Of a stretch of DNA of 33,516 bases, positions 7,885 through 31,673 are shown piece by piece. The DNA comes from Nitrospiraceae bacterium (lineage in GTDB: Bacteria > Nitrospirota > Nitrospiria > Nitrospirales > Nitrospiraceae). The stretch covers positions 1-33,516 of the forward strand of contig JACMLT010000150.1 in NCBI GenBank assembly GCA_014379455.1. Direction: 5' to 3'. How positions within the stretch are numbered: position 1 is the first letter of the stretch; each line of letters opens with the position of its first letter. Below the pieces are notes generated by a model. That model made no database searches. It worked only from the letters and a program-made list of their open reading frames with translations, and had not been told where the DNA came from. Made by a program: the position numbers and the translations under genes.

Positions 7885-7888
7885 GACT

Positions 7889-14037: not shown

Positions 14038-14052
14038 GCAAGGGGCATTCCA
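14038..14052 (-). promoter_or_regulatory. Sigma-54-type promoter of the STAS/efflux operon
   Basis: On the minus strand TGGAATGCCCCTTGC fits the -24/-12 pattern (consensus TGGCAC-N5-TTGC): GG at 14051-14050, exactly ten bases, then GC at 14039-14038. Transcription would begin near 14026, leaving a leader of about 17 nt before the STAS ATG. An overlapping weaker GG-N10-GC pair lies a few bases upstream. Activation by an enhancer-binding protein is expected, and a palindrome lies about 105 bp upstream. Confidence 0.6.
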
Positions 14053-14132
14053 GCAGCCAAGATCGAGTCTATTTTTATAACCTATTGTTATTTTGATAAA
14101 GGATTTAAGGCCCATCTGGTAGACATATCTAA

Positions 14133-14182
14133 CTGCCGAGGACGTTCTGCCGATATCCCGGCACACGACGAACCATCGGCAG
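14133..14182. promoter_or_regulatory. Enhancer palindrome A (putative activator site)
   Basis: The core TGCCGATATCCCGGCA at 14148-14163 is an inverted repeat TGCCG-N6-CGGCA. Two further half-sites flank it as a wider inverted pair: CTGCCGA at 14133-14139 and TCGGCAG at 14176-14182. The core matches palindromes B (27602-27617) and C (31638-31672) in sequence and in distance from a sigma-54 promoter. It is likely the binding site of the Fis-type regulator at the right end of the window. Confidence 0.6.
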
Positions 14183-14300
14183 GAGCTGAAAGAATGGCCC
14201 ACGATCCAAGTCGTCCGTACAGATGGCGAGAACCTCTCATCGTCTTTCTCGCGAAAACACCGGTAGCGTTTTTGGATGATTTCTACATGTGTCATGTGTT

Positions 14301-14900
14301 TCACGGCTTCCGGGTATAGACGATCTCCATCATCTTCATTTCTTTGCCCTTCTTACCGGCGCCGTACATCTCGAATATCTCGGTGTTGTTGTCCACGATC
14401 TTGGTCACACCGCGCAGCTTCATGTGTCCTTCGGTAGGGTCATCGTACTGACCTTTCTGCGTGATGGTCTTGCCATCCGCGCTGGCTGTACCTTCCATAA
14501 CATAGATGCCGGTACCCATCGAATCCATCCAGGTCGAGACGTACTTCTTGGTGTAGTTGTCGTACCCGATCACGCCGATCCCGGTAAACGGCTGCCCCAT
14601 CATGTCTCCGGTACACTCCTGCTGGAGAAAACGGCCGTCCAGCAGCATCTTCTGTTCACAGGAACCGGTCGATTCCGTCGGAGGCTTGTTGGGTTCCATC
14701 CAGGACTTGGTCTTGGTGGTCCAACTTCCCGCCAGGCTCGCGAACTGCTTGTGCGGTTCGCCTGGCGTAGCCAGTTTCTGATAGGTCTCCATCATTGCCT
14801 GCGGATCCATCTGTTTCTCTTGTTTCTTTTCTTTTGCCATCACGAGAGACGCAGACATGACGAGACAGAGACAGGTGAGTGTCATGTATGTGAGACGCAT
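14301..14900 (-). CDS. Secreted DUF1579-family protein
   Basis: 199 aa from the ATG at 14900, with AGGAGG eight bases upstream. The N-terminus MRLTYMTLTCLCLVMSASLVMA is a Sec signal peptide with likely cleavage after VMA, so the protein is periplasmic or exported. The mature part begins with a Lys/Glu/Gln-rich stretch, then LAGSWTTKTKSWMEP and the segments GIGVIGYDNYTKKYVSTW and MGTGIYVMEGTASADG, which follow the DUF1579 (lipocalin-like barrel) pattern. The function of the family is unknown. No clear partner; the broken VOC gene lies 71 bp upstream. Confidence 0.8.
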   Translation of the reverse strand: MRLTYMTLTCLCLVMSASLVMAKEKKQEKQMDPQAMMETYQKLATPGEPHKQFASLAGSWTTKTKSWMEPNKPPTESTGSCEQKMLLDGRFLQQECTGDMMGQPFTGIGVIGYDNYTKKYVSTWMDSMGTGIYVMEGTASADGKTITQKGQYDDPTEGHMKLRGVTKIVDNNTEIFEMYGAGKKGKEMKMMEIVYTRKP

Positions 14901-14971
14901 GGTTGCCTCCTCAGGGTTGATTGTTTTCCGAAAAGGTCTGCCTCGAACTTGATAGCCGATTACAGGCGGAC

Positions 14972-15420
14972 TCACCCGCGCTGCTGTTGCTTCAGCAAAG
15001 TTGCCGCACGCTTCTTTATCTCTTCCGACGGGACATCTTCGATGTGCGTGTGAATCCACACTGATTGCCGGCGACGTCTTTGACACCGGCGCTGCGATCG
15101 CCATAGAACTGGTCGGCCGGTTCCCTGACGGACGTGGCTCCGGCTCGCAGCGCTCGCTTGTACCAGGCGTCCGCGTCCTCGACATACAGCGCCACCGTCG
15201 CCGGCATCGGCTTCCACTCATCCGTGGCCTCGCCCAGCATCACCATGGAGTCGCCGATTTTCACCTCGGCATGCATCACGATGTCCTTCGGGCCTAGAAA
15301 CCGGTAGACTTCTTTTGCATCAAAGGCCTGCTTCAGGAATTCGATCAGCTTCGCCGCCCCATGAACGGTCAGCACTGGCGTCACGGTATGATAACCGTCA
15401 GGAATGGGGTTCACTGGCAT
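14972..15420 (-). pseudogene. VOC-family (PhnB-like) protein gene with a C-terminal frameshift
   Basis: The start is the ATG at 15420, after a strong GAGGAGG. The frame reads as a PhnB-like glyoxalase/bleomycin-resistance fold (PIPDGYHTVTPVLTVHGAA ... ADQFYGDRSAGVKDVAGNQC) and then switches phase. In-frame it ends with an unrelated tail (GFTRTSKMSRRKR, stop near 15016). In the next phase the expected family ending follows: VWIHTHIEDVPSEEIKKRA to KQQQRG, stop at 14972. Comparison with the intact paralog at 16909-17388 (HWHFATHVEDVPPDEMAKRA) places a one-base loss at about 15056-15062, where CAGTGTGG stands for an expected CAGTGGTGG. Either a real mutation or a sequencing error. Confidence 0.8.
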
Positions 15421-15549
15421 GGGTGTGTCCTCCTCTACACGTTGATTGCTCGTGTCACTTGTTGATTCCGTCATCCGTGGATATGATGATTCGCTACCCT
15501 TATGAACTTTTAAACATCATCTTCCAGAGCGTCTATTATTCTCGCCTGA

Positions 15550-15900
15550 TCAGCTGAGGCGCACCGAGCCCTCCCGATCGTTCCACGCGGTGATCTCGGC
15601 CTGCGGCCGTTTCTTAGCATGTTCCCCGATCCAGCCAGCAACTTGATCGTCTGTCGCGCCAGAGGCAACGAAAGCCCTGAACGCGTCGTAGTCGATCTCA
15701 GCGAATTTCAACCACCGCTGATCGAGCGGGCAGTTGGAGAAATATTCGCCCTGCCGGTCCACGAGCGCTGCGCGGCATTTGTCCAACGCGCGGGCAGCCA
15801 ACGCATAACCACCGAGCTTTTCCCGCGGGCTGCGAGGGGATTCCTTGTCGTCCCGCAAATCGCGGGCAAACAACTTCACTTTTGCGAGGTCTTCTTTCAT
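15550..15900 (-). CDS. DUF5069-family protein
   Basis: 116 aa from the ATG at 15900. Recognised by the conserved blocks SPREKLGGYALAARALDKC near residue 25, the middle block NCPLDQRWLKFAEIDYDAF and the C-terminal TDDQVAGWIGEH, which match the DUF5069 pattern (a small cytosolic domain of unknown function common in environmental bacteria). It lies 17 bp after the RidA-like gene at 15918, so the two are probably cotranscribed. No catalytic residues are known for the family. Confidence 0.8.
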   Translation of the reverse strand: MKEDLAKVKLFARDLRDDKESPRSPREKLGGYALAARALDKCRAALVDRQGEYFSNCPLDQRWLKFAEIDYDAFRAFVASGATDDQVAGWIGEHAKKRPQAEITAWNDREGSVRLS

Positions 15901-15917
15901 AGGATTTTCTTCCCGTA

Positions 15918-16328
15918 TTACCTTCGCTCCCACTCTGCGGCAGAGTCGGCAACGGCGATCGCTTCGATCTCGATCATCGCGTCCGGAGAGTACAGCGAGC
16001 GTACTTCGACGATGGTGTCTGCCGGATAGGGTGCCGTGAAGTAGCGACCCCGCAACTCGACGATCTTTGAAAAGTTCGACATGTCTCGGAGAAAGATCGT
16101 GACCTTAACAACGTTCGCCAGGCTTGAGCCGCCCGCGCGAAGAATCCGATCGAGATTCGTGAAGACTTGCTCGGCCTGAGCCTCAAAGTCGTCGACCCCG
16201 ACAATCCGACCGTTCTGATCAATCGCAGTCTGACCGGAGATAAACAGCAGATCTCCGACTCGATAGCCCTGCGCAAGGCGAAATGGCTCGTAGGGATCGG
16301 GATCGATCCGAATACGCTTGATTTTCAT
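15918..16328 (-). CDS. RidA/YjgF-like protein, second paralog
   Basis: 136 aa, full length. Rid fold blocks GDLLFISGQTAIDQNGRIV, VVKVTIFLRDMSNF and DTIVEVRSLYSPDAMIEIEAIA are clear. As in the paralog at 6088, the position of the catalytic Arg of true RidA (P-A-R-x-x-V) is not Arg: here the segment is YPADTIVEV. So imine-deaminase activity is doubtful. Similarity to the first paralog is only at family level, so they are not a recent tandem copy. Followed closely by the DUF5069 gene. Confidence 0.87.
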   Translation of the reverse strand: MKIKRIRIDPDPYEPFRLAQGYRVGDLLFISGQTAIDQNGRIVGVDDFEAQAEQVFTNLDRILRAGGSSLANVVKVTIFLRDMSNFSKIVELRGRYFTAPYPADTIVEVRSLYSPDAMIEIEAIAVADSAAEWERR

Positions 16329-16375
16329 GCTGCCTGCTCCTTACTGATGCCTGGACCATCTACAAATATTCACAA

Positions 16376-16859
16376 TTAGCCACACGGTTCACTTGGTATC
16401 GAAAACGCCTTGAGTGTGGCGATCCACCCAGCCAGCGTAAGGGCAGCACGGACGTAGTTCAAGTGCAGCCATTGCGAGGCCATCGTATCGACCGTCGATT
16501 CAGGGAGGCTTTCAGCACGCATCGGCTTGAGTGCAGTAGGAGAAGGTCCCGATCCGTTCCACGAGAATAATCGCCGGTGCAGCAAGCCACCAGTCATATC
16601 TGAGACCTTCTGCTTGCCAAGCCACGACCAAACTTGCCAACGTAAGCAACGTCAGCGGTACGGTCGTGACCTAAGCCCAGGATTTTCGCCCCGCGTCGGT
16701 CCGTCGCATCGCCTCACTGTCCACTCGAAGTCCAGAATCCGGCGACCTTCTGAACCATCGCGGAAGAATAATTCGCTGTTCATACAACCCAGCGCCAAAC
16801 GCGATAACGACGTTCATTACAAGCAGCCAAAGCAACGCTTCCGTAATGTATTCTGTCAC
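16376..16859 (-). pseudogene. Broken gene for a small multi-pass membrane protein
   Basis: A GTG at 16859 with AAGGGGATAAAG upstream starts a frame reading MTEYITEALLWLLVMNVV, which stops at a TAG (16671-16673) after RKSWA. The same frame then continues VTTVPLTLLTLASLVVAWQ and ILVERIGTFSY, after which the reading phase changes and PTALKPMRAESLPEST to the final IPSEPCG is read, stopping at 16376. So there are two lesions: a nonsense codon, probably from Tyr, and a frameshift near 16545. The shift lies at TTCTCCTACTGC, where deletion between two CCTAC repeats would explain it. Reconstructed, it is about 160 residues with four hydrophobic segments, resembling DUF1772-like membrane proteins (tentative). 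Confidence 0.75.
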
Positions 16860-16908
16860 CTTTATCCCCTTACGCTGTCAGTCACTCCAGAGCCGCGTGA
16901 GCAATGGC

Positions 16909-17388
16909 TTATGCCCCACCCTGCTGTTTCATGAAGGCCTCGGCACGTTTCGCCATCTCATCGGGTGGCACGTCCTCCACATGCGTCGCGAAATGCCAGT
17001 GATGTCCGAAAGGGTCTTCTAGGCTGCCCGACCGATCGCCGTAAAACTGATTTGCCACCGGCCTGATCACCTTCGCGCCTGCGGAGACCGCTCGCTTGAC
17101 GAATGTGTCTACATCCTTCACATACACCATGATGCTCACCGGCGAGCCACCGAATGACTGCGGGCTTTTACAATTCATGTCAGGAAACTCGTCGGCCAGC
17201 ATGATGATGGCCTTGCCGATCTTGATCTCGGCATGCCCGACTGTTCCGCCGGGACCTGGCATACGCATCACCTCCGAAGCCCCGAAGGCGTTCTTATAAA
17301 ACTCAAGCGCGCCGGCTGCACCCTTGATGATGAGATAAGGCGTCGCGCCTTCATAGCCCTCTGGGATGGCGTTCACTGTGTCTGGCAT
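16909..17388 (-). CDS. VOC-family protein (PhnB-like)
   Basis: 159 aa with AAAGGAGG before the ATG at 17388. Two beta-alpha-beta-beta-beta halves of the vicinal-oxygen-chelate fold are visible: TPYLIIKGAAGALEFYKNAF, GHAEIKIGKAIIMLAD, VYVKDVDTFVKRAVSAGA and NQFYGDRSGSLEDPFGHHW. The ending HVEDVPPDEMAKRA is typical of the PhnB-like subgroup. Members include metal-dependent and metal-free proteins; no reaction can be assigned. It is the intact counterpart of the frameshifted gene at 14972-15420. Confidence 0.88.
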   Translation of the reverse strand: MPDTVNAIPEGYEGATPYLIIKGAAGALEFYKNAFGASEVMRMPGPGGTVGHAEIKIGKAIIMLADEFPDMNCKSPQSFGGSPVSIMVYVKDVDTFVKRAVSAGAKVIRPVANQFYGDRSGSLEDPFGHHWHFATHVEDVPPDEMAKRAEAFMKQQGGA

Positions 17389-17497
17389 GGGCGACCTCCT
17401 TTGTGAAAAAGCGGAACGATTCTGACATCCGATACATTATTACCCCGCGTCCAAGCTCAACGGCGTATATCGCTTGCGGCGCGTCTCACTCAGCTCC

Positions 17498-18259: not shown

Positions 18260-18299
18260 TGTGCCTCCTGTTCTTTGCACGATCGCCTGAGAATTGATG

Positions 18300-20662: not shown

Positions 20663-22081
20663 TTATGCGCTGAAGAATCCGTGAAAAAGAGCATCCGGGT
20701 CGTATGTCCGGCGAAGCGACTGGAGGCGTTGCCAGTTCGTTCGCGCGAAGGACCGTTCGGCGCGCGCCGGCTCTGCCACGATGTCGGACTCGCCCACGTA
20801 ATGGCCCACCGCAAACGAGTCCAGTGCCGCTATCGTCTCGCGATGCCATGCGGCGTTCACGGCGTCATCCTCCGGCCGCTCCCAGATCGCATAGCAAAGG
20901 AGTAATGTCCCGGCGGTCATCGAGAATGCGGCATCGGGTAGCACAGCAGCACGACCCTCGACCCCAGTGGAAAATGCGCATGCCGCCAGTGACTTCGGTG
21001 ACGGCGCGTGCAGGAAATAATCGCGCGCAGTCGCGAGCAGCTGCGCGGGCGGGGAGTCCGACCAGAGCGTATCGGCCAGGTAGCGGTGGCGCTCCGGCAA
21101 TAACATACCACCCATGTCCTGCAAGGCAGCCAACGGAGTGGGCTGGTTCACCTCCTTTTGCAGACACTCGTGGGCAACAGGGCAATTCTCCAGGAGGCCC
21201 AGTGTAGCGGTGGCTTCTTGCGCGGTATCGAGGAATGCGGTCGCACTCAGGATACCTACAAAGCCATTGCTGGGCCCGCATTGCTTGGCGAGAGCGGCGG
21301 GCACAGGCGCGAAGAAAATTTTCAGCTCCACCTCTCTCGGCAATTGTCTGGCAACGCTTCCCGCCCACGCGGCGACCTCCTCAATGCGGTGCAACGGGTA
21401 ATAGTAGGTGCTGGTCGTGATGGCACGCGGTGCCTGGTACAGCTTGAGAAAGTATTGTGTCACCACCGCAAAGAAGCCAGGCCCGGCTCCGCGGATCGCC
21501 CAGAGTAGGTCAGCGTGTTGCTCCTGGTTGGCGACTACGATACTGCCATCGGCAGTGACGACGTTGGCGGCTTCGATGCTGAAGCAGGCCGGCCCCCAAC
21601 TGTTGCAATTCAAGCCCAGACCGCCGTTCAGCAAATAGCCGCTCAGGGGAACCGACGGACAATGTCCGACGGGAAAGGCCAGCCCGTGGGGAGCCAACTG
21701 ACTGTTGAGTTCCCGACCGGTAACCGCCGGTTGAATCGCCGCCACGCGGGCCTCGTAGTCAATCGAAACCCGATTGAGGCGCCCAAGATCGATCAACAGG
21801 CTCTCGTCGCGAAGCGAGAACCCAACCCAACTATGCCCCCCGCCTCGCACCGCGATTTTCATTCCATGCGTGCGTGCAAACCGAACCACCTCGACGACAT
21901 CCTGCTCAGTCGCGACTTGCACGACCAGCTGCGGGTAGCGCATCGGCGTCAGCTGATTCCAACTCATCTCACATCTGATTTGTTCGTACCCGGCGTCGGT
22001 CGCGGTCGTCACTTTCCCCTCGATGCGACTCTGCAGTTCTTTCACTCCCGTAATAGGAACTCTTCCATCCACTCTTCTCAC
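20663..22081 (-). CDS. FAD-linked oxidoreductase, berberine-bridge-enzyme family
   Basis: 472 aa. Start taken at the GTG at 22081, whose GTGA overlaps the RND stop; GTG codons at 22072 and 22045 are alternatives. FAD-binding type-4 (PCMH) domain at about residues 45-225, with VRGGGHSWVG holding H83, the expected 8-alpha FAD attachment site, and GHCPSVPLSGYLLNGG holding C141, the expected 6-S-cysteinyl site, so bicovalent FAD is likely. The BBE C-terminus (TNWQRLQSLRRTYDPDALF) is present. Family members oxidise sugars, alkaloids or phenolics with O2. No signal peptide. It is the last gene of the TetR-controlled efflux operon, so it may act on the pump substrate. The region is visibly GC-rich. 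Confidence 0.9.
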   Translation of the reverse strand: MRRVDGRVPITGVKELQSRIEGKVTTATDAGYEQIRCEMSWNQLTPMRYPQLVVQVATEQDVVEVVRFARTHGMKIAVRGGGHSWVGFSLRDESLLIDLGRLNRVSIDYEARVAAIQPAVTGRELNSQLAPHGLAFPVGHCPSVPLSGYLLNGGLGLNCNSWGPACFSIEAANVVTADGSIVVANQEQHADLLWAIRGAGPGFFAVVTQYFLKLYQAPRAITTSTYYYPLHRIEEVAAWAGSVARQLPREVELKIFFAPVPAALAKQCGPSNGFVGILSATAFLDTAQEATATLGLLENCPVAHECLQKEVNQPTPLAALQDMGGMLLPERHRYLADTLWSDSPPAQLLATARDYFLHAPSPKSLAACAFSTGVEGRAAVLPDAAFSMTAGTLLLCYAIWERPEDDAVNAAWHRETIAALDSFAVGHYVGESDIVAEPARAERSFARTNWQRLQSLRRTYDPDALFHGFFSA

Positions 22082-25000
22082 CCCTTTGCCGGGACGATCA
22101 ACAGCTCTTCCTGCTCGACCTCCTCGTGCGCCGGGCTCGGCTGGTGTTGCGCCGCGATCAGCGAGTAGAACACCGGCACGACGAAGAGCGTGAATACCGT
22201 GCCCACGGTCATGCCGGTGACCAGCACCATGCCGATGCTGTTGCGGGCAGCCGCTCCCGGTCCCGAAGCCAGCACCAGAGGGAGGTGCCCGAAAACGGTA
22301 GCCGCCGACGTCATCAGCACCGGTCGCAGTCGCGTCAGCGACGCCTCGCGCAACGCGGCGGCCTTCGAGAGACCGCGGGCCTGCAACGTGTTTGCGAACT
22401 CCACGATCAGGATGCCGTTCTTCGCGATCAGTCCGACCAGCGTAATCAGCCCGACCTGTGAGTAAATGTTGATCGTGGTCAGGTCCAGGAAGGTGAATAT
22501 CAGCGCGCCGGAAATCGCAAGCGGTACCGAGCCGACAAGGACGATCAGCGGGTCCCGAAAGCTCTGGAACTGCGCCGCGAGCACCAGATAGATGAGCACG
22601 ACCGCGAACCCGAGCGTGACGATGAGCGCAGACCCCTCGTGACGGATCTGTCGTGACTCGCCCGCGTAGTCGATGGCGACGCCGGATCCGCTCGCTGCAG
22701 CGGCTGCGGCTTCGAGGACGCGCAGCCCTTCTTCCTTGGTGACGCCCGGCTTGACGCCGCCGAAGATTCGTACCGCGTTGCGCTGCTGGAAGCGGTTCAG
22801 AGTGCGCGGCGCGGTGCTCGTTTCGATGTGCGTGAACGTCGAGACCGGCACAAGCTGGCCGCCCGGGGTCTTGATCTTGAGATCGAGGAGCGGATCGACC
22901 GTCGCGCGGTCTTTGTCGCCGATCTGTGGAATGACTTTGTAGCTGCGGTCGAAATAGTTGAACCGGTTGACATACGCGCCGCCAAGGAGTGTTCCGAGTT
23001 CGCGGCCGACCCCCGCCAGGTCGAGCCCTAAGTCGGCGAGACGCTCACGGTCAAGCACCACACGCGCCTCAGGGAGGTCGATCTTGAGATCGGTGTCCAC
23101 ATACAAGAACTTGCCGCTTTGCCACCCAGCGCCGAGCACGGCGCCGACCGTGTCGAGCATCTGCTCGGGCGGCACATCGTTCTGCAGCACAAGTTCGACG
23201 TCGTACTGACCGGGGGTGGGCAGCGGCGGGTCCAAGCGCGGGAATACGCGCAGACCCGGCACCTGCGACACCGCGCCAAATACCTCGCCGTACATCTCCT
23301 CGGTCGATCGTGCCCGTCCGTGCCAGTCCTTCGCGACCAGGCCTCCGAATCCGCCCCATGCCGCCGTCAGCGACCACGTGAATTCCGTCTCGGGAAAGGA
23401 CGTGATGGTTTTGACAACCTGCAAATGCTCGCGGTTGGTGGCGGCCACGGTGGAGTCCGGCGACGCTTGGAAAAACAGGCTGATGTGGCTCTGATCCTCA
23501 ACGGGAGCGAGTTCTTGCCGCGAAAACATGTACAACGGCCACACTGCGATCATGATGAGCAGTGAAGCCACCACGACCGCCCAGCGCATCCCCAGCGCAC
23601 TGTCGAGCAGCCAGGCGTAAATACGGCGCACCTCTTCGAACTTTCTGTTGACGAAGGCGGTCAGCCGGCCTTCCTCGCCCTGAGCATGCACAAATCGCGA
23701 ACTCATGACCGGCGACAGCGTCACCGCCACGATCCCCGATAAGACCACCGCCACGGCCAACGTCATCGCGAACTCCAGGAACAACGAGCCGGTCAAGCCG
23801 CCCTGGAAACCGATTGGCGTGTAGACCGCGGCCAGCGTGATCGTCATGGCGATGATCGGACCGATCAGTTCGCGCGCACCAGCCAGCGCCGCCTCGATCC
23901 GAGACTTGCCCAGGCGCACATGCCGCTCGACGTTCTCAACGACAACGATCGCGTCGTCCACGACCAGCCCGACCGACAATACGATCGCGAGCAGCGTCAA
24001 GAGATTGAGGCTGAAGCCGAACGCAAACATGAACGTCGCCGCTCCGATCAGCGACACCGGCATCGCGACGAGCGGCACGAGCGCGGTGCGCACCGAGCCC
24101 ATGAAAAGAAACACGACCAGCGCGACAATCAGGATTGTCTCTGCTAACGTCTTGCTGATCTCTGTCAGCGCATTCCGCATGAACATCGTGCCGTCCCAGA
24201 CGAGCTGCATGTCGATGTCTTTCGGCAGGGTCGGCCGAATACGCTCCATCTCATCGCGCAGCCGGTGCGCGACATCGATCTCGTTCGAACCGATCAGTGC
24301 CCAGATCCCAAGGTAGACACCCTCTTTCCCGTTGTACTTCGCGACCATGTCGGCCTCTTCGGCTCCATGCTCGACCTGGGCCACGTCTCTCAGCCGTACG
24401 ATCGCGCCTCCCCGGTCGGCAACAATCAGGTTCTCGAACTCCTCGGCAGAGCGCAGGTCGGTATTCGCGAGCAGGTTGATCTGCACCAAGTTACCCTTCG
24501 TCCGACCGACGGCCGCCAGGAAGTTGTTGCGCTTGAGGGCGGCCTGCACGTCTCCGGGCGAGAGATTGAGCGCGGCAAGGCGATCCGGGTCGATCCAGAC
24601 GCGCATGGCGATCTGGCGGCCGCCCTCGAAGGTGACCCGCTGGACACCGGGCAACGTCGAGAGTTGGGGCTGCAGCGTGCGCAACAGCCAATCCGTGACG
24701 GCCGGCACGCTGCGCTCCGTGGAGGTGAAGCTGAGATAGAATGACGCGTATGGGCGGTCGGCCCGTTGCATTTCAATCGCAGGCGGCTCGGCTTCCGTCG
24801 GCAGTTCCGAGCGTACCTGTTGCAGCCGCGCTGTGACCTCTGCCAAGGCCGCCGTGCTGCTGTGGTTCAGCTTCAAGTGCACCGTGACGGTGCTGACACC
24901 GGCGCGGCTGGTCGATTCCACATAGTCGACACCGCCGATCGCGGAGACGACCCGCTCAATCGGCGTACTGAGAAAGCCACGGACGGTTTCGGCGCTGGCG

Positions 25001-25161
25001 CCGTAGTAGACCGTCGTAATGATCACGGATGAACTCTCGATCTTTGGGTACTGCTGCAACGGCAGAGTCGTCAGCGCCCGCCACCCCGCGAGCACGATCA
25101 CGAGGTTCACGACGACCGCCAGCACCGGATGCTTGATGAAGATATCGGTGAACGAGCGCAT
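22078..25161 (-). CDS. RND efflux pump, HAE1-type (MexI/MexW-like)
   Basis: 1027 aa inner-membrane proton-driven exporter; AGGAGAAGGAT precedes the ATG at 25161. The N-terminus MRSFTDIFIKHPVLAVVVN and the first loop LQQYPKIESSSVIITTVY resemble the MexI/MexW branch rather than MexF. TM4 contains GLVVDDAIVVVENVERH with the proton-relay Asp pair, and TM11 reads LVGLIAKNGILIVEFA. No outer-membrane factor accompanies it, so it must borrow one, possibly the NodT-type channel at 7889-9304. It lies between the adaptor (32 bp gap) and the flavoprotein (4 bp overlap). Confidence 0.95.
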   Translation of the reverse strand: MRSFTDIFIKHPVLAVVVNLVIVLAGWRALTTLPLQQYPKIESSSVIITTVYYGASAETVRGFLSTPIERVVSAIGGVDYVESTSRAGVSTVTVHLKLNHSSTAALAEVTARLQQVRSELPTEAEPPAIEMQRADRPYASFYLSFTSTERSVPAVTDWLLRTLQPQLSTLPGVQRVTFEGGRQIAMRVWIDPDRLAALNLSPGDVQAALKRNNFLAAVGRTKGNLVQINLLANTDLRSAEEFENLIVADRGGAIVRLRDVAQVEHGAEEADMVAKYNGKEGVYLGIWALIGSNEIDVAHRLRDEMERIRPTLPKDIDMQLVWDGTMFMRNALTEISKTLAETILIVALVVFLFMGSVRTALVPLVAMPVSLIGAATFMFAFGFSLNLLTLLAIVLSVGLVVDDAIVVVENVERHVRLGKSRIEAALAGARELIGPIIAMTITLAAVYTPIGFQGGLTGSLFLEFAMTLAVAVVLSGIVAVTLSPVMSSRFVHAQGEEGRLTAFVNRKFEEVRRIYAWLLDSALGMRWAVVVASLLIMIAVWPLYMFSRQELAPVEDQSHISLFFQASPDSTVAATNREHLQVVKTITSFPETEFTWSLTAAWGGFGGLVAKDWHGRARSTEEMYGEVFGAVSQVPGLRVFPRLDPPLPTPGQYDVELVLQNDVPPEQMLDTVGAVLGAGWQSGKFLYVDTDLKIDLPEARVVLDRERLADLGLDLAGVGRELGTLLGGAYVNRFNYFDRSYKVIPQIGDKDRATVDPLLDLKIKTPGGQLVPVSTFTHIETSTAPRTLNRFQQRNAVRIFGGVKPGVTKEEGLRVLEAAAAAASGSGVAIDYAGESRQIRHEGSALIVTLGFAVVLIYLVLAAQFQSFRDPLIVLVGSVPLAISGALIFTFLDLTTINIYSQVGLITLVGLIAKNGILIVEFANTLQARGLSKAAALREASLTRLRPVLMTSAATVFGHLPLVLASGPGAAARNSIGMVLVTGMTVGTVFTLFVVPVFYSLIAAQHQPSPAHEEVEQEELLIVPAKG

Positions 25162-25193: not shown

Positions 25194-26324
25194 TCAGCGT
25201 TCGCCGAGGATTACCTGACCAGACCCGCCCCCATCCTCGGGGCTGCCGGCAATCGCGACAAGCACGGCTTCTCGCAGTTTGAAAGACCCCGAGACAGCCA
25301 CTCGTTCACCGGCGGACAGCCCGGCGTGAATCACAACCTCGTCGCCGAGCATCGCGCCGCTCTCGACCTGCCGCACGTGCGCACGGGTCTTCCCGTTCTT
25401 GTCCGGCTCGATCACGAACACCTGATCGCCGCCCGGCCCCTTGCGCATTGCGCTCACGGGTACAGCGACGGCCTTGCGTGGCAGGCCTATCGAAACCCGG
25501 ATGCGGACCGAGGCGCCAGGGGACGGCGCGTTGGCGGCGCCCTCGATTCTCGCGCGTACCATGGCATTGCGTGTCGTGGGGTCAACACGCGCATCTACCG
25601 CGACGATTTTGGCTACGATCGAGGACGATTGGCCGGAGGCGGAGACTTCGACGCTGTCGCCCTCCCGCAGGCCCGCGGCGACCTGTTGCGTGACCGTGAA
25701 GTCCACATGCACTGCGTCATCGATACCCTGCAGCGTCGTGAGTTCGGTGCCCTCGTTCAGATACTGGCCAGGGTGCAAGTCCGCCATGCCTACTCGCGCG
25801 CGGAATGAAGCCCGAATGGTCTTGCGGGCGATGATCGCCTTGGTACGCGCGATCTGAGCCAGTGCGATATCGCGGTCTGCACGCGCGCGATCCACTTCCT
25901 CCTGGGTCGTGGCACGGTCATGACTCAAGTTGTTCCTGCGTTTGAGCACCGTCCTCGATAGGCCGGCCTGCGCTTCCTGCGCCTTCAGCTCAGCCTCCTC
26001 GACGGACACATCAAGCGCGACGAGCACCATGCCGGTGTCGACGACTTGCCCGGGTGTGAGATTGACATAACGGACAGTGCCTGGGAGCTCGTTACGCAAG
26101 GTAATCGAGCGCAGTGCCAGAACCGTCCCGATGGACGTGGCAGTGTGGCGGTGCTCAATTTCCTTCGCGAAAGCGACGGTCACCGACTCCATCGGCTCCG
26201 GTTGGTTCGCGGAGGCGGCCTCGCTTGCCTGTATGGCCGTATACTTCCACGCTGCCAGGCCAACGCCGACCGAGACAACCATGACGAGCAATAGAAAAGA
26301 TCCGATCCAACTCCGACGATTCAT
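25194..26324 (-). CDS. RND efflux periplasmic adaptor
   Basis: 376 aa. An N-terminal hydrophobic segment (SFLLLVMVVSVGVGLAAW) serves as uncleaved anchor or signal peptide; unlike the first adaptor there is no lipobox Cys. Lipoyl halves and a helical hairpin follow (ELKAQEAQAGLSRTVLKRR, DRDIALAQIARTKAIIARK), then TIRASFRARVGMADLHPGQ and the membrane-proximal domain. The start at 26324 overlaps the tetR stop as ATGA, with GGGAGGG inside the tetR end as ribosome-binding site. It is translated as part of the tetR operon and so presumably repressed by it. Confidence 0.93.
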   Translation of the reverse strand: MNRRSWIGSFLLLVMVVSVGVGLAAWKYTAIQASEAASANQPEPMESVTVAFAKEIEHRHTATSIGTVLALRSITLRNELPGTVRYVNLTPGQVVDTGMVLVALDVSVEEAELKAQEAQAGLSRTVLKRRNNLSHDRATTQEEVDRARADRDIALAQIARTKAIIARKTIRASFRARVGMADLHPGQYLNEGTELTTLQGIDDAVHVDFTVTQQVAAGLREGDSVEVSASGQSSSIVAKIVAVDARVDPTTRNAMVRARIEGAANAPSPGASVRIRVSIGLPRKAVAVPVSAMRKGPGGDQVFVIEPDKNGKTRAHVRQVESGAMLGDEVVIHAGLSAGERVAVSGSFKLREAVLVAIAGSPEDGGGSGQVILGER

Positions 26325-26944
26325 ACGCGACGCCCTCCCGAACGCCTCCCCGATGAACCCTTGACCTTGGGTGAACGGCGAACTGGTGTCGCGCGGGCCA
26401 GCATGTCCTCCAGCGCGCGGCGCACCCGAACGACGCGGACTTGTTCGAGTGGAACGATTCCCAGCACCCAGTCGAGCCAGAGTCCATCGATCGCGGCAGC
26501 GACCGCTTCACCAACCCCCGGCGGCAGGCCATCCTGCGCGATGCGCCGGTGGAGGTCGGCGTAGACCGCGCGCATGGGCTGGATCAACGCGGGGTTCTGA
26601 GCGAGCGCCGCAAATACCGCGGAGGAACTGCGCCGCAGTTCCTCTGTCCAGCACTTGGCGTCCGAAAGGCAGTGGTCCAAGAGCGCGCGCACCATACGCC
26701 CGGGTCCTTCCGGCGTGCGCTCGTACGCTTCGGTGTAGCAGGATCGCCAACCTTCGGCTGTGCGGATGACCAGCGCTTCGATAAGCCGGTCCTTCGACGG
26801 GAAGTGATGCAGCAGGCCGCCCTTGCTCATGCGCGCCTCGGCAGCGACGGCATCGAGCGTCAGGTTCGCGATGCCCTGGCGGGCGACCACGGCTTCGGTG
26901 GCGTCGAGGAGCATGTCTTGTAGCTTCGGGGTTGTCCGTTTCAT
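26321..26944 (-). CDS. TetR-family repressor of the second efflux operon
   Basis: 207 aa from the ATG at 26944. N-terminal helix-turn-helix: LTLDAVAAEARMSKGGLLHHF, that is LTLDAVAAEA then MSKGGLLHHFPSKDRL, the standard TetR_N pattern. The ligand-binding helices follow; the C-terminus is Arg-rich (VRRSPKVKGSSGRRSGG). The start fits a promoter only six bases upstream and there is no Shine-Dalgarno site, so the message may be leaderless. Two palindromes at the promoter are its likely operators, which implies autorepression together with the adaptor, pump and flavoprotein genes. The inducer is unknown. Confidence 0.93.
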   Translation of the reverse strand: MKRTTPKLQDMLLDATEAVVARQGIANLTLDAVAAEARMSKGGLLHHFPSKDRLIEALVIRTAEGWRSCYTEAYERTPEGPGRMVRALLDHCLSDAKCWTEELRRSSSAVFAALAQNPALIQPMRAVYADLHRRIAQDGLPPGVGEAVAAAIDGLWLDWVLGIVPLEQVRVVRVRRALEDMLARATPVRRSPKVKGSSGRRSGGRRV

Positions 26945-26950
26945 GGGTAA

Positions 26951-26979
26951 AGAATACCGACCGGTCGGTCTGGTGTCAA
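26951..26979 (-). promoter_or_regulatory. Sigma-70-type promoter of the tetR-efflux operon
   Basis: On the minus strand: TTGACA (26979-26974), a 17-base spacer, then TATTCT (26956-26951). The -35 box is perfect and the -10 box matches 4 of 6. After TATTCT only TTACCC precedes the ATG, so the expected start of transcription coincides with the first base of the coding region. Confidence 0.7.
26956..26969. promoter_or_regulatory. TetR operator O1
   Basis: ACCGACCGGTCGGT is a perfect 14-bp palindrome lying within the promoter spacer and touching the -10 box. Repressor bound here would block RNA polymerase. Confidence 0.65.
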
Positions 26980-26992
26980 CCGTCCGGTCGGT
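26979..26992. promoter_or_regulatory. TetR operator O2
   Basis: ACCGTCCGGTCGGT repeats the O1 sequence with one mismatch (A to T at 26983). It lies just upstream of the -35 box, 23 bp centre-to-centre from O1, about two helical turns, which suits cooperative binding of two dimers on one DNA face. Confidence 0.55.
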
Positions 26993-27088
26993 CGGTTCAC
27001 GTCCTCCCACATGTGTAGTCGATTCATCCGATAGGCTGAACGTCATTCTCACACCTCACCCCGGGCCGGCCATCGCCACCGTTCCACT

Positions 27089-27391
27089 TCAGATTCTGAG
27101 CGCACGGTGCGCGACCGGCCTTGGTCGCCCGGCCGAGTGCGGTGGCGCCACGGCGTACCGAATCGGACGCGGCTGCGCCTTTCCGTCTTGCACCATGATG
27201 CGGATCTCTTCGATAACTCTGCCGCACCTCGCGCAAGTCCAAGCCGTAATAGCCAACGCCTCGCTGTCATCCAGCACTATCCGGCCTGTTCCACCGATGA
27301 CCGTGTCATAACAGTGCCGACACGCGGTCTGATTCTTCCGTTGCAAAAAGTCGAGTGCGACTGAGTTGGATGGTTTCGTCTCTGATCTCAT
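27089..27391 (-). CDS. Small CxxC/CxxC (zinc-ribbon-like) protein, copy 1
   Basis: 100 aa; AAAGGAGTG precedes the ATG at 27391. Two Cys pairs, C24-R-H-C27 and C53-A-R-C56-G, probably bind one Zn or a redox-active centre. The second knuckle ARCGRVIEEIRI resembles VQCGEMIDPVIL of the protein at 31178-31453, so the two are likely paralogs sharing only the metal-site core. The C-terminus is Arg/Pro-rich. The gene follows a sigma-54-type promoter and palindrome B. The function is unknown; a small stress-response or DNA/RNA-binding protein is possible. Confidence 0.75.
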   Translation of the reverse strand: MRSETKPSNSVALDFLQRKNQTACRHCYDTVIGGTGRIVLDDSEALAITAWTCARCGRVIEEIRIMVQDGKAQPRPIRYAVAPPHSAGRPRPVAHRALRI

Positions 27392-27476
27392 ATTTCACTC
27401 CTTTACATTCTTGACGAGTTACATTCTCGACGAGGTGACGGATTCGTGTTCACATCACCTACCCACCCGGCATATG

Positions 27477-27492
27477 GCATAGACTGTTCCCA
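27477..27492 (-). promoter_or_regulatory. Sigma-54-type promoter of CxxC gene copy 1
   Basis: The minus strand reads TGGGAACAGTCTATGC: GG at 27490-27489, ten bases, GC at 27478-27477. The -12 half (TATGC) is weaker than at the other two sites. Transcription would start near 27465, giving a leader of about 75 nt. Palindrome B is about 120 bp upstream of the -24 element. Confidence 0.5.
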
Positions 27493-27600
27493 ACAGATGA
27501 CGATTCGACGTAGCCGACATAAGCATTTGATAGAAAATGGATTTGTGATCGAAGAGTGTGGTTTCAAGAGCATCAAAATAGAGTAGTGACGACATCCCGG

Positions 27601-27618
27601 CTGCCGACATCGCGGCAG
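27601..27618. promoter_or_regulatory. Enhancer palindrome B
   Basis: CTGCCGACATCGCGGCAG is an inverted repeat (core TGCCGACATCGCGGCA, 27602-27617) matching palindromes A and C. The -24 element of the CxxC promoter lies about 120 bp downstream on the minus strand. The rest of the 27392-28012 gap holds the activator relic and hairpin listed separately and otherwise no gene I can support. Confidence 0.6.
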
Positions 27619-27817
27619 ATGACGAAAGATCGGCGTTAGCCCAAGTAACTAGCCGTATTTCTGAAACACATCTCGCTATCCGCCGGGGACTCACAGTAAA
27701 AGCGAAACTGGCCGAACGTTTCCCCTCTGGACGTCGTGCTAGTCGAGCCCATCTCGCCTATCACTCGTAGATTCCGAGAGCACCGAGAGACGAACGATGA
27801 TGGGTGAATGATCCGAG

Positions 27818-27889: not shown

Positions 27890-27915
27890 CCTCCTTTAGG
27901 GCAGTTAAAGGAGGG
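27889..27915. repeat. 10-bp stem hairpin at the edge of the activator relic
   Basis: CCCTCCTTTA (27889-27898) and TAAAGGAGGG (27906-27915) are perfect inverted repeats around a 7-base loop. There is no T-run on either side, so it is not a standard terminator. It marks the point where similarity to the intact activator gene begins and may be a deletion or insertion scar. Confidence 0.5.
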
Positions 27916-28012
27916 CGGGTCACGACGCACTCAGGCCACCGTGGCTGCACTCTGCGAGCGTCGGAGTCCAGCCGGCTGTTAGACCCCATAGGCGTCGTTT
28001 GATGGGTAACGC

Positions 28013-28735: not shown

Positions 28736-28802
28736 GAGTTCATCCTTTGCTGGTTAGTTTGATATCAGAATTACACGCCTGCGCTTAGAAAAGCCTTTTC
28801 CC

Positions 28803-29789
28803 TTAGGCCACAGTCGCGATTGTTTTACGACCCGCAGGCAGGAATGCTTCTGCTGGGAGGATGTTGTACCGCCTTCGGAGCTCCTCGACCTGTTCCCCCA
28901 TGACTGGCCAGTAGTCCCAGCCGTCGTTCAGATCCACGTTCATCGCTGCCCCCCGCCGAATCGCGATCAGCGCTTTCGCCGGGTCGAAGAATCCCGTTCT
29001 GGCCTTGGTGATCGGCGTCATACGGATGCCCACGTGGAATTGCAGCAGGACGAAGAAGACGAAGAGCCACGGGTCGCGCCGCTGGAAGCCTGCGCTGAAG
29101 CAGGCGACTTGGACTTCTCCTTCCGGCTCCGTTCCATAGCCGGATAAGAGGTGCGCGCAATCGTGAAACAGAATTTGTTCTGGGGCTCCACCCTTTTCCC
29201 CTGGGAGGGCAAATCCGTTGTTTCGGCAGTAGTCCCAATAGGCACGCCCCAGTGAACCGACGGGATATTGTTCCAAGGCCTGGTAGCGGGCTGCGAGTGC
29301 CGTATCTTCATACTTTCCGATCATCCCGCGCATAAACTTGTAGAGGCCCCGGATGCCCTCTCCGTTCCAGATGTCTTTAACTTTGTCTCTCAGCCAGAAT
29401 CGACGCGCCAGATCGAGGCGCAGCTGAAGGATCTCTCCCTTGAGGACATGCCGCAGGTCCTTCACCTCGGGAGCACTGACCTCCAGCGCCTTCGCGAAGT
29501 GCTCGACCAGGTTCGTCTCCTGGGCATTGGCTTTCCCGTCGATGAGGGACATCACGATGAGTCCCTGCACCAGTTGCTGTCTGAGCTGCGGATCGGGAAA
29601 CGCCCGGGCCAGCTCGTCTGATGTGATTGGAGCAAGCTCTTCCAGCGAATAGGTGGTCCCGAATATCCGCTGGACCGCCTCCATCATGTGCCGCTCCGAA
29701 TCGTCGAGCTTCCCATCCGCCAGTGCGACGGTCTTCATCGCCCGCAACCCCCAATAGGCTTGTTCAAGACTCGGTATTTTCAGTTCCAT
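28803..29789 (-). CDS. TerB-like domain fused to Coq4-like domain
   Basis: 328 aa from the ATG at 29789, five bases after AGGAGGT; a GTG two codons earlier is less well placed. Residues 8-115 form an all-helical TerB-like module (ALADGKLDDSERHMMEAVQR and SLIDGKANAQETNLVEHF, two Asp/Gly-rich repeats). Residues 130-290 resemble COQ4: the zinc motif H209-D210-x2-H213-x11-E225 is exact (FHDCAHLLSGYG then EGEV). COQ4 takes part in ubiquinone biosynthesis in eukaryotes. In bacteria, Coq4-like proteins are uncharacterised. The fusion suggests a membrane- or quinone-related enzyme with a metal-sensing helical partner. The tail is hydrophobic and basic. Confidence 0.8.
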   Translation of the reverse strand: MELKIPSLEQAYWGLRAMKTVALADGKLDDSERHMMEAVQRIFGTTYSLEELAPITSDELARAFPDPQLRQQLVQGLIVMSLIDGKANAQETNLVEHFAKALEVSAPEVKDLRHVLKGEILQLRLDLARRFWLRDKVKDIWNGEGIRGLYKFMRGMIGKYEDTALAARYQALEQYPVGSLGRAYWDYCRNNGFALPGEKGGAPEQILFHDCAHLLSGYGTEPEGEVQVACFSAGFQRRDPWLFVFFVLLQFHVGIRMTPITKARTGFFDPAKALIAIRRGAAMNVDLNDGWDYWPVMGEQVEELRRRYNILPAEAFLPAGRKTIATVA

Positions 29790-30256
29790 CGTCACCTCCT
29801 CAAGTAAGGACTATTTCCGTATGACAATCTGGCTGGAATCGTTCGGCTCTAGCCCACATTCTGCATAACCGTTCGTCGCGAAATCGTGCCGTTGCCATGC
29901 GAGACAGGCGCGCGGAGCCGTGAGGCAGGGTCTTCCCCGTCTGGGAGTTCCGAAGGGGGTGTGCCCCCTTCGTGGGGATTCTCCAAGGGGGCTGGCCCCC
30001 TTGGAGGAGTGGGCGAGGCAGGCTTCAGCGCCGAGCCTGCGACGGGAGGGGACATACTTGAAACAGGATGTTGACCGACCGAACGACGAGCCCTCCTGCC
30101 TGGACGCCGTCCGTCCAAACCGCGTCCAGGTGCGTCGTCACCGCGTTTGCGAGGTCGAGCGCCCTTTACATGATCGTGGCGCGAAGAAGGATTTCCATAT
30201 TGGATCTCGACTTCCATCTTCGCGATTGGAGCAGAAACATTCATGAGTAATGCGGG
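29790..30256. other. Intergenic stretch without a supported gene
   Basis: 467 bp between the TerB-Coq4 gene and the membrane-anchored periplasmic protein. Open frames exist on both strands (for example minus 29849-30244) but are Pro/Arg/Gly-rich, lack ribosome-binding sites and run through the paired hairpins at 29951-30005. I see no convincing coding signal; the hairpins are its main content. Confidence 0.6.
29951..30005. repeat. Twin G/C hairpins
   Basis: Hairpin 1: CGAAGGGGG (29951-29959), loop TGTG, CCCCCTTCG (29964-29972). Hairpin 2: TCCAAGGGGG (29982-29991), loop CTGG, CCCCCTTGGA (29996-30005). Both stems are perfect, share the AAGGGGG core and lie 9 bp apart. Identical architecture with compensating outer bases suggests a REP/BIME-like repeat or a structured RNA rather than chance. 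No T-run follows either stem. Confidence 0.65.
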
Positions 30257-30844
30257 CTACGAACGGAGGACAGTCCACCAATTCCGCAGCCACGTCGAGC
30301 GAAGCAGCTTGTATCCCAGCCACGCCGCAAGCAGCACCCCGAGGAGCGGGATGGTCATCGTACGGACCAGCTGCTCGTAATTAGTCATGTGGACCCGCAA
30401 CAGATACTGCGGGCGCTTCATCAGGTTCTGTTTCTCCGCCGAGATGGTGACGGTATACAAGCCCTCATCCAGCCGGACTTCGCCTCTCAATATGCCATCC
30501 GGGTGGAGGCTCGGCCGAATATCGGCCACAATCTGATCGTCCGCCTCTTTGCTCCCGTTCCCCTTCACGACCCGCATCCCAACCAGTTCATTGCGCAGCA
30601 CCGGGTCCACGAGGTCGACGACCAGAAAAGTGTCGCCGGACTGGGGAATATCCGTGCAGTATTGATCTTTCACCTGATATTGGGGCTGATAGGCGTTGAA
30701 ATGGACCACCTGCCCCCCGATTCGGCGCAGACAGGGGTCGTCTTCCCCATTCACGGCGCCATGGGCCGCGGCCACGTCAGGGTGGGACAGCACGGCAACC
30801 AGAAGGAGCCCCAGCGCGCCGATCCCTCTCATGTGTGTCATCAT
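30257..30844 (-). CDS. Periplasmic protein with C-terminal membrane anchor, unknown function
   Basis: 195 aa from the ATG at 30844 (GAGGAGG upstream; the next ATG codons at 30841 and 30832 are alternatives). Signal peptide: GALGLLLVAVLSHPDVAAA, likely cleaved before HGAVNGEDD. The periplasmic part has one Cys pair, DDPCLRR and DQYCTDIP, separated by about 25 residues and possibly disulfide-bonded, then a beta-rich stretch (TFLVVDLVDPVLRNELVG, LRGEVRLDEGLYTVTIS). A single transmembrane helix (IPLLGVLLAAWLGYKLL) and a basic cytosolic tail end the protein. The shape recalls periplasmic domains of copper- or cytochrome-associated proteins, but no family is recognised. Confidence 0.78.
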   Translation of the reverse strand: MMTHMRGIGALGLLLVAVLSHPDVAAAHGAVNGEDDPCLRRIGGQVVHFNAYQPQYQVKDQYCTDIPQSGDTFLVVDLVDPVLRNELVGMRVVKGNGSKEADDQIVADIRPSLHPDGILRGEVRLDEGLYTVTISAEKQNLMKRPQYLLRVHMTNYEQLVRTMTIPLLGVLLAAWLGYKLLRSTWLRNWWTVLRS

Positions 30845-30886
30845 GGTCAAACCCTCCTCATCGGCCTATTCCGTTCAACGACTCAG

Positions 30887-31024
30887 TCAGAAACGGTTCC
30901 GTCTGCGATGCAGCGAGACGCGCTGGGCAACAGGCACACGTGCCGGCACCGGTTTCCCTGGCCGACCACGGACGGCCCACCAAAGCGCCACGAGTGCCAG
31001 TACTCCCACGATTATCTGGTCCAT
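30887..31024 (-). CDS. Small single-pass membrane protein (FeoB-associated-like N-terminus)
   Basis: 45 aa with an excellent site, AAAGGAGG, before the ATG at 31024. It begins MDQIIVGVLALVALWWAVRG, one transmembrane helix, then a basic Pro/Arg tail ending HRRRNRF. The start resembles FeoB-associated Cys-rich membrane proteins, but this frame has no Cys. A different phase over the tail reads GAGTCACCPARLA and stays open to 30858, so the original Cys-rich tail may have been lost by frameshift. It lies 42 bp before the membrane-anchored periplasmic protein gene and is probably cotranscribed with it. Confidence 0.6.
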   Translation of the reverse strand: MDQIIVGVLALVALWWAVRGRPGKPVPARVPVAQRVSLHRRRNRF

Positions 31025-31177
31025 GCTGTCCTCCTTTGTCGTTGCCGACGGTCCCCTTCATCCATTCTTGTCACCCATCTCTGTGGCTCACCGAGTAGAC
31101 AAGCCCCTCCGGGGTGTAGAGAGGGGCCTATCCACCTCAGCGAGAAACGCCGTGAGTATTCCGGCGCCATCTCTCTA

Positions 31178-31453
31178 TTAATTTTTCGTCACGCAATTGC
31201 TCAGTAACATTTTTTCTGCAAGATGCGTGGCCATCGGTCCATGCAGTGCCCCTCGGTTGTGCAGAATGACCGGATCGATCATCTCTCCACATTGCACGCA
31301 GCGCTGAGCGCGATAGTCCGACAGATCTTGGCCCCACTCGTCGACCATAAGTCCGCTGCAGCGTGGACAGCGACCCGTGTTGTGGATGCTTGCCCAGTTT
31401 CGAGTCGCCACCTCAATCGATTGCTGGAGTGTCATCGCTCGTGCCGTCTCCAT
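31178..31453 (-). CDS. Small CxxC/CxxC (zinc-ribbon-like) protein, copy 2
   Basis: 91 aa from the ATG at 31453, after GGGAGG. The longer frame to 31546 would run into the promoter and is rejected. N-terminal helix (TLQQSIEVATRNWASI), then C29-P-R-C32 and C52-V-Q-C55-G, a probable zinc ribbon, followed by EMIDPVILHNRG and a helical tail. It shares the second knuckle pattern and promoter architecture with the protein at 27089-27391. It lies directly downstream of the sigma-54 activator gene with palindrome C and a strong sigma-54-type promoter between them. Function unknown. Confidence 0.78.
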   Translation of the reverse strand: METARAMTLQQSIEVATRNWASIHNTGRCPRCSGLMVDEWGQDLSDYRAQRCVQCGEMIDPVILHNRGALHGPMATHLAEKMLLSNCVTKN

Positions 31454-31514
31454 TTGATGCCTCCCTTCAGCGATCCATCGGTTTTCCATCACACCATTCA
31501 TAACAAGATAGAAT

Positions 31515-31530
31515 AGCAACTCGCGTTCCA
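31515..31530 (-). promoter_or_regulatory. Sigma-54-type promoter of CxxC gene copy 2
   Basis: The minus strand reads TGGAACGCGAGTTGCT, close to the consensus TGGCACG-N4-TTGCW, with GG at 31529-31528, ten bases and GC at 31517-31516. This is the best of the three sigma-54-type sites. Transcription would begin near 31504, about 50 nt before the ATG. Confidence 0.7.
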
Positions 31531-31636
31531 GAGATTTCCCACCCAATCTGAATGATCAATGTTGCTGAAACTAAAAGAGATTGCGTGATCTCATTCAGGA
31601 CCGTCTCTCGCGAAACAATGAAGTGCCGAAGATAAT

Positions 31637-31673
31637 CTGCCGACTCGACGGCACGGTGCCGACATGTCGGCGC
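31637..31673. promoter_or_regulatory. Enhancer palindromes C1 and C2 (tandem)
   Basis: C1 TGCCGACTCGACGGCA at 31638-31653 and C2 TGCCGACATGTCGGCG at 31657-31672, 19 bp centre to centre. Both match palindromes A and B. A further half-site GTGCCGA begins at 31623. They lie about 117 and 136 bp upstream of the -24 element of the CxxC copy 2 promoter and just after the stop of the activator gene. Confidence 0.65.

Follow-up and report, generated by a model that had tools for sequence, protein, structure and literature searches.

The locus and its operators

The window analysed here, a stretch of 33,516 nucleotides from a Nitrospiraceae bacterium (assembly GCA_014379455.1, contig JACMLT010000150.1, positions 1 to 33,516), carries the gene of an enhancer-binding protein with GAF, AAA+ and Fis-type domains, here called REG, followed on the same strand by three sigma-54-type promoters, each of them preceded by two palindromes and a half-site (Table 1). 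The domains of the regulator, the operators, the promoters, their spacing and their conservation are read directly from the sequence. Taken together, they make it highly probable that the locus is a local sigma-54 efflux/detoxification regulon driven by REG, an FhlA-like GAF/AAA+/Fis protein.

The palindrome TGCCGN6CGGCA occurs three times in exact form in the window, against a mean of 0.12 in shuffled sequences, and none of 100 shuffles yielded three or more copies. A first-pass annotation of this DNA had reported these three palindromes together with three minus-strand GG-N10-GC promoters at spacings of 105, 120 and 117/136 bp; all three palindromes are indeed exact, the promoters were found again, and the spacings were measured as 104, 119, 116 and 135 bp. 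What had been missed are the second, degenerate palindromes at promoters 1 and 2 and the half-sites at all three promoters. With these included the three operators have a common layout, in which the distal palindrome lies 18–19 bp upstream of the proximal one and a TCGGCA or TCGTCA half-site stands 24–25 bp past the start of the proximal palindrome. Promoter mismatches are counted throughout against the sigma-54 −24/−12 consensus TGGCACGN4TTGC; promoters 3 and 1 have GG-N10-GC elements near this consensus and promoter 2 is borderline. The loose sigma-54 motif has 88 matches in the window, fewer than the shuffle mean of 117, and being rarer than expected by chance it was dropped as evidence when standing alone. 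Moreover, chance composites appear in the window once one palindrome mismatch is tolerated, for example at 12500–12515 within the RND1 gene, and an opposite-strand promoter match with three mismatches within the regulator gene, at 31756, makes up another.

The regulator has the features of an enhancer-binding protein: its AAA+ domain matches PF00158 with 243 bits and has the GAFTGA motif at residue 345, and its C-terminal Fis-type helix-turn-helix (HTH) matches PF02954 with 30.7 bits, over the cut-off of 22. As to the signal of the GAF domain, a comparison of residues 1–250 in 53 sequences gave no invariant set of cysteines and histidines, the best conserved being C191 at 94%, and therefore we do not claim metal or nitric oxide sensing.

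Table 1. Regulator, operators, promoters and predicted target genes in the window
Feature	Position	Strand	Remarks
Regulator REG, 577 aa	31709-33442	-	GAF, AAA+ sigma-54 interaction domain, Fis-type HTH; PF00158, PF25601, PF13185, PF02954
Promoter 3, distal palindrome CGCCGACATGTCGGCA	31657-31672	-	centre 135 bp from -24; present at orthologues
Promoter 3, proximal palindrome TGCCGTCGAGTCGGCA	31638-31653	-	exact; centre 116 bp from -24
Promoter 3, half-site TCGGCA	31624-31629	-	conserved column block in operator alignment
Promoter 3, sigma-54 type, TGGAACGCGAGTTGC	31516-31530	-	1 mismatch to consensus
CxxC1, 91-aa double-CxxC zinc-ribbon-like protein	31178-31453	-	first after promoter 3; no Pfam family over cut-off
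g197, 197 aa	30257-30850	-	no Pfam match; homologues after regulator in L147-L150
TerB-like protein	28803-29795	-	PF05099; recurrent neighbour
Promoter 2, distal degenerate palindrome CGCCGATCTTTCGTCA	27620-27635	-	18 bp beyond proximal one; kept in L147
Promoter 2, proximal palindrome TGCCGCGATGTCGGCA	27602-27617	-	exact; centre 119 bp from -24; kept in L147
Promoter 2, half-site TCGTCA	27587-27592	-	
Promoter 2, sigma-54 type, weak, GGGAACAGTCTATGC	27477-27491	-	4 mismatches to consensus
CxxC2, 100-aa double-CxxC protein	27089-27391	-	first after promoter 2
TetR-family regulator	26321-27052	-	PF00440, PF17937
HlyD2, membrane fusion protein	25194-26324	-	PF13437
RND2, efflux permease	22078-25161	-	PF00873
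FAD-linked oxidase	20663-22081	-	PF01565; ends tight promoter 2 run
Promoter 1, distal degenerate palindrome TGCCGATGGTTCGTCG	14166-14181	-	18 bp beyond proximal one
Promoter 1, proximal palindrome TGCCGGGATATCGGCA	14148-14163	-	exact; centre 104 bp from -24
Promoter 1, half-site TCGGCA	14134-14139	-	
Promoter 1, sigma-54 type, TGGAATGCCCCTTGC	14038-14052	-	2 mismatches to consensus
STAS-domain protein	13713-14009	-	PF01740; heads efflux operon; homologues near REG in many relatives
HlyD1, membrane fusion protein	12473-13729	-	PF16576
RND1, multidrug-type efflux permease	9306-12647	-	PF00873; NF000282, 1396 bits over cut-off 1250
Outer-membrane efflux protein	7889-9304	-	PF02321
Nitroreductase-family protein	7285-7947	-	PF00881
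Short-chain dehydrogenase (SDR)	6488-7288	-	PF13561
L-PSP/RidA-family protein	6088-6477	-	PF01042

The genes behind promoter 1, from STAS through HlyD1, RND1, the outer-membrane efflux protein, the nitroreductase and the SDR to RidA, follow one another with gaps of at most 10 bp, and those behind promoter 2, CxxC2, TetR, HlyD2, RND2 and the FAD-linked oxidase, with gaps of 36, −4, 32 and −4 bp. The targets named in the first-pass annotation, an efflux/detoxification operon and two CxxC genes, are thus retained, but CxxC2 does not stand alone at promoter 2, which heads the whole tight run down to the oxidase, and the regulon therefore probably covers two RND pumps.

Further genes between the runs point the same way and have glyoxalase, cupin, arylamine N-acetyltransferase and ODP-type domains. 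Taken as a whole, the minus-strand genes at 5439–31453 (about 26 kb) abound in domains of detoxification type, with two RND pumps, a nitroreductase, three glyoxalase-fold and two RidA-type proteins, an N-acetyltransferase, an ODP-type protein and a cupin.

Conservation of the operator beside the regulator

Homologues of REG at E≤1e-100 occur in 146 of the 395 genomes of the phylum. In the best 30 homologue places, taken unselected, a palindrome-promoter pair is present in 24 of the 29 relatives, under looser limits and in short stretches. We have compared longer stretches in a set of 41 loci, consisting of the window and 40 relatives chosen from the homologue places at one per genome, and define a composite as a palindrome with at most one core and at most three total mismatches that is followed at 98–146 bp by a sigma-54 match with three mismatches at most, on the regulator's strand. 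Composites are found in 38 of the 41 regulator loci, the kind of operator conservation looked for in a regulon with one activator, and in 34 one is present no more than 700 bp past the regulator gene. They amount to 55 composite promoters, window promoter 2 not being counted, and wherever palindromes are paired (32 pairs) the spacing is narrowly confined: 18 bp in 20, 19 bp in 11 and 17 bp in one.

A control scan of the 40 relatives on both strands, with promoters of at most two mismatches, gave 73 palindromes in 32 loci at 98–146 bp, at least one of which, that of L181, falls on the opposite strand within the regulator gene; the reversed motif gave none, 30 permuted half-site motifs (29 distinct) gave 0–6 each, and seven other distance bins contained 0–1 each. 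Gene families of the window recur behind the composites, with CxxC genes, the STAS-RND operon and the second RND operon among the targets. At 28 of the 55 promoters, two of which are the window's own, a homologue of a window gene begins between −60 and +100 bp of the −24 element, namely HlyD2 in 10 cases, STAS in 8, CxxC1 in 6, CxxC2 in 3 and TerB in one. A palindrome in the distance class of promoter 1, 101–105 bp from the −24 element, precedes STAS in L147, L149, L151, L153, L158 and L161, and in L147 the weak promoter 2 is kept with its entire operator, the promoter (GGGAATAGTCTATGC) differing by one base.

Alignment of 47 operators from the window and its relatives returned the distal palindrome and the half-site as conserved blocks, with the palindrome consensus TGCCGAnATnTCGGCA. 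Seven of 54 operators were omitted, their sole palindrome lying beyond 126 bp, and promoter matches ending in CATGC without an initial TGGAAC were discarded, being hits to the other strand of the regulator gene; the rows include the near-certain duplicates L017/L176 and two overlapping rows from L153. Over all 395 genomes the composite pattern has a match in 115, many of which resemble chance matches in coding sequence, and this search was used only for locating places, 10 loci being inspected.

Specificity was further analysed in named genomes, over the best 80 loci with a homologue (1.24 Mb in all), allowing two palindrome mismatches, three promoter mismatches and a distance of 90–165 bp. 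Five carry a composite, every one among the ten listed first: Nitrospira UBA2083 (L016), Nitrospirae NS_1 (L017), metagenome-assembled genomes (MAGs) of Acidobacteria (L018) and Acidobacteriaceae (L023), and a deltaproteobacterial MAG (L020), whose qualifying pair is found upstream of the regulator, directed away from it. The remaining 70 of the best 80 have none. The recognition helix of REG is near-invariant among members of its clade, and homologues further off have an altered one; in L019, where it reads RLGLNRTTLNNRLRKLGI, the TGCCG palindrome is missing and the STAS-RND operon is retained next door. This joint change of helix and palindrome suggests protein-DNA covariation.

In the host genome (G000; 3.73 Mb in 384 contigs), which also carries the sigma-54 gene, pattern searches gave 24 exact palindromes, compared with 11 for the reversed-pattern control. 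Three of the 24 are those of the window, all outside long open reading frames (ORFs). Seventeen of the remaining 21 fall within ORFs of at least 150 aa and 4 do not, and one (L143, inside an ORF) has a weak sigma-54-like match, with at most four mismatches, at 98–146 bp; two more, L008 and L140, both inside ORFs, have such matches just beyond this range, at 147 and 148 bp. From the ORF location and promoter distances of the 24 copies it follows that an intergenic copy with a correctly spaced promoter is present only at the window locus. The first-pass annotation had assigned control of the local regulon to the protein at 31709, and had regarded palindromes frequent at random positions, or lost at orthologous promoters, as arguments against it. 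In the genome-wide search, random positions seldom combine the palindrome with a promoter, orthologous intergenic regions keep it at orthologous promoters above the motif and distance controls, and the conservation of the operator beside the regulator (38 of 41 loci) supports the assignment, with the 31709 protein as the putative binding partner.

Proposed mechanism and alternative explanations

We infer binding of REG to these sites, hexamer assembly and activation along the following lines. Regulator dimers would bind the two TGCCGAnATnTCGGCA palindromes set 18–19 bp apart, and a third dimer may occupy the adjacent TCGGCA half-site, giving a scaffold for the hexamer as in NorR. DNA looping would bring the activator to the sigma-54 RNA polymerase at the −24/−12 promoter some 100–120 bp downstream, where a signal received by the GAF domain, perhaps, at a guess, a toxic small molecule that is also a pump substrate, would lead to ATP hydrolysis and promoter opening. 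The predicted targets are CxxC1, the run from CxxC2 through TetR, HlyD and RND to the FAD-linked oxidase, and the operon of STAS, HlyD, RND, outer membrane protein, nitroreductase, SDR and RidA. For NorR, activation is reported to require three enhancer sites, on which the oligomer is assembled (PMC2941729); the two palindromes and the half-site seen here, the half-site at 62–72% per-base conservation in the 47 aligned operators, may correspond to them.

A number of observations weigh against this reading. Promoter 2 fits the sigma-54 consensus poorly, with its four mismatches, and falls outside the limits of the 41-locus survey. Three of the 41 loci (L173, L178 and L186) carry the regulator and no composite under the survey limits, seven have none within 700 bp after the regulator, and five of the 29 relatives in the unselected set (L116, L117, L130, L134 and L135) show no palindrome-promoter pair in the short stretches. 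Composites are likewise missing in L019, L021, L022, L024 and L025, five of the ten closest named homologues. Per-base conservation of the half-site reaches only the 62–72% given above, and the loci, belonging to one family, are related and not independent, L017 and L176 being apparently the same contig. Finally, the palindrome relaxed to two mismatches has 29 copies in the host genome versus 14 for the reversed control, so that degenerate regulon members outside the window are possible.

Among other explanations of the same sites, we regard as improbable, if the least so of those considered, that the palindromes are true enhancers bound by another enhancer-binding protein of the same genome, alone or with the 31709 protein. 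The host genome has 18 matches to sigma-54 activators, any other of which could use the sites, and this likewise counts against assigning them to REG; furthermore, paralogues with a near-identical recognition helix occur in related genomes in the same stretches as operators of this type, for instance in L261 and L262. However, the operator follows the REG gene within 700 bp in 34 of the 41 loci and is missing beside more distant homologues, and of the own-genome paralogues on contigs C26 and C242, whose two C-termini were compared, neither retains the recognition-helix letters of REG. It is less probable still that the sites are operators of the TetR protein at 26321–27052, acting as a local pump repressor, with the sigma-54-like motifs incidental. 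TetR proteins bind palindromes and often adjoin RND pumps, and this TetR gene sits within the promoter 2 run. Yet TetR homologues, by BLAST labels and in stretches of at most 20 kb, are found in only 4 of the 40 relatives (L147, L149, L153 and L183), compared with 37 of 40 for the composite, and the palindromes persist where the TetR gene is absent from the stretches compared; they also stand at a fixed distance 100–120 bp upstream of the promoter, rather than overlapping it.

Very little likelihood is left to the palindromes being transcription terminators or a dispersed repeat. Palindrome 3 follows the stop codon of the regulator and is called by a loose terminator scan, but the other two give no terminator-like call and the five-pair stem has no T-run; as for a repeat, the genome has only 24 exact copies, and pairs 18–19 bp apart recur at a fixed promoter distance in many genomes. 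Chance clustering of a GC-rich motif with a loose promoter motif we consider the least credible of all. GG-N10-GC is common and relaxed criteria yield composites even inside window genes, but the shuffles, the genome-wide counts, the reversed, permuted and distance controls, the conservation in 38 of 41 loci and the specificity among named genomes all oppose it, and conservation exceeds what shared ancestry would give, according to the motif and distance controls and the 41-locus survey. Control of the window operators by REG is thus the reading we retain.

The amoC locus and comparison with known systems

The operator model led to a similar arrangement at a singleton amoC gene on contig C26 of the same genome (PF04896; G000:C26:7695-11253, locus L217, with the operator in L100/L280). 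Two TGCTGA/TCAGCA-like palindromes (TGCTGATTTTTCGGCA and TGCTGACAATTCAGCA), 19 bp apart, stand 134 and 115 bp before a sigma-54-type promoter (TGGAATGTGAATTGC), and the gene is divergent from that of a GAF-PAS-AAA+-Fis activator with the recognition helix KLGLPRQTLESKITALGI. AmoA and AmoB were not found by Pfam among the three downstream neighbours of this amoC. The amoC-type composite is seen again in several genomes of the same genus. Homologues of the amoC-side activator at E≤1e-160 are present in 13 of 175 genomes of the family, the host included; six of these 13 loci have a composite, followed by amoC in four (one cut by a contig end and one with an N run) and by a tautomerase-like ORF, a label read from the sequence, in two. 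The other seven have no composite in the stretch compared, several with partial matches or N runs, and one of them, L288, does show a composite when more of its contig is taken (L257). Conversely, over 51 amoC places (52 rows, one place appearing twice) the composite is found in 4 and in none of the other 47.

The host has four AmoC matches, which together with the named genomes nearest to it suggest a comammox Nitrospira. In a 2018 review, all comammox genomes are said to carry at least one non-operonal amoC, and the non-operonal amoC of ammonia-oxidising bacteria is described as controlled by sigma-32 (PMC6311188). We put forward tentatively, as a possibility somewhat short of an even chance, that the comammox "FhlA" proteins, instead of regulating formate genes, founded a sigma-54 stress network, in which the efflux member (TGCCGA/TCGGCA) would have a sister with a changed helix driving the singleton amoC through TGCTGA/TCAGCA-like sites arranged in the same way. 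Related switches would then connect the expression of the pumps with the renewal of the enzyme that oxidises ammonia.

Some further observations concern these circuits. The g197 protein of the window has a 59% identical homologue at L217 (14389–14976), about 6 kb from the singleton amoC, and a STAS-like protein (L217, 11445–11804; a weak match, STAS_2 below cut-off) adjoins the activator there, which recalls the STAS gene of the efflux operon; it may be that STAS proteins influence activators of this kind. Four genomes from another genus of the family (L260–L263) have tandem TGCCG palindromes placed between amoC and a divergent run that is headed by a CxxC1-like gene and includes STAS and HlyD-type genes, with a DoxX-like gene in L260 and L261 (labels read from the sequences). 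Since the amoC side of L260–L263 gave no sigma-54 match, amoC is not claimed as a target there. Elsewhere in another genus (L199 and L212) a TGCCGAACTCTCGGCA-type palindrome and a TGG-N9-TGC promoter precede a conserved ORF (about 139 aa) at a place apart from the regulator, a possible distant regulon member; further matches of this kind, in G123:C16 and G129:C11, are listed in the 395-genome composite search. In L197 (genome G195) a palindrome pair and a promoter, TGGAACGATCATTGC, stand before a membrane protein that looks DedA-like. In the literature searched, which covers few subscription papers, we found no description of this operator, of the regulon or of a sigma-54-controlled amoC.

With respect to known systems, REG resembles GAF-controlled activators but qualifies neither as FhlA nor as NorR, as it scores below both cut-offs. 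FhlA (NF011958) is its best NCBIfam model, at 559.5 bits versus a cut-off of 830; the two share the GAF domain, the AAA+ domain with GAFTGA and the Fis HTH, the best stretch covering REG residues 67–575, but the N-terminus of REG is shorter, the match starting at model position 175, and it is predicted to act on genes of efflux and detoxification instead of those of formate hydrogenlyase. NorR of E. coli is likewise a GAF-controlled activator with a stress-defence role. It has, however, its own distinct recognition sequence and senses nitric oxide via bound iron, whereas the operators of REG consist of two palindromes and a half-site, and REG reaches 382.7 bits on the NorR model (NF003451), under the cut-off of 476. 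The pumps compare with AcrB-type RND operons under TetR control in having an RND permease, membrane fusion and outer membrane proteins, and one of them has a TetR gene; they differ in that the pumps here are predicted to be activated, through sigma-54 and an enhancer-binding protein, and in that a STAS gene leads one operon.

The regulon would give a widespread class of Nitrospira regulators a concrete operator, promoter and set of targets, and the operator model is usable for predicting targets genome by genome. This bears on a published puzzle. In Camejo et al. (2017), fhlA is the sole analysed regulator common to all nine Nitrospira genomes compared; it is tied there to formate hydrogenlyase, comammox strains are described as apparently unable to oxidise formate, and the gene is suggested to be perhaps an ancestral trait in them (PMC5596200). 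Among the six host activators scored on the FhlA model, out of the 18 sigma-54 activator matches, REG ranks highest, the other five reaching 419, 385, 312, 309 and 301 bits. That REG is not FhlA could account for the presence of an "FhlA" in comammox Nitrospira, which seem unable to oxidise formate. If the fhlA of Camejo et al. is indeed REG, its role would be the control of efflux and detoxification, and the formate puzzle would disappear.

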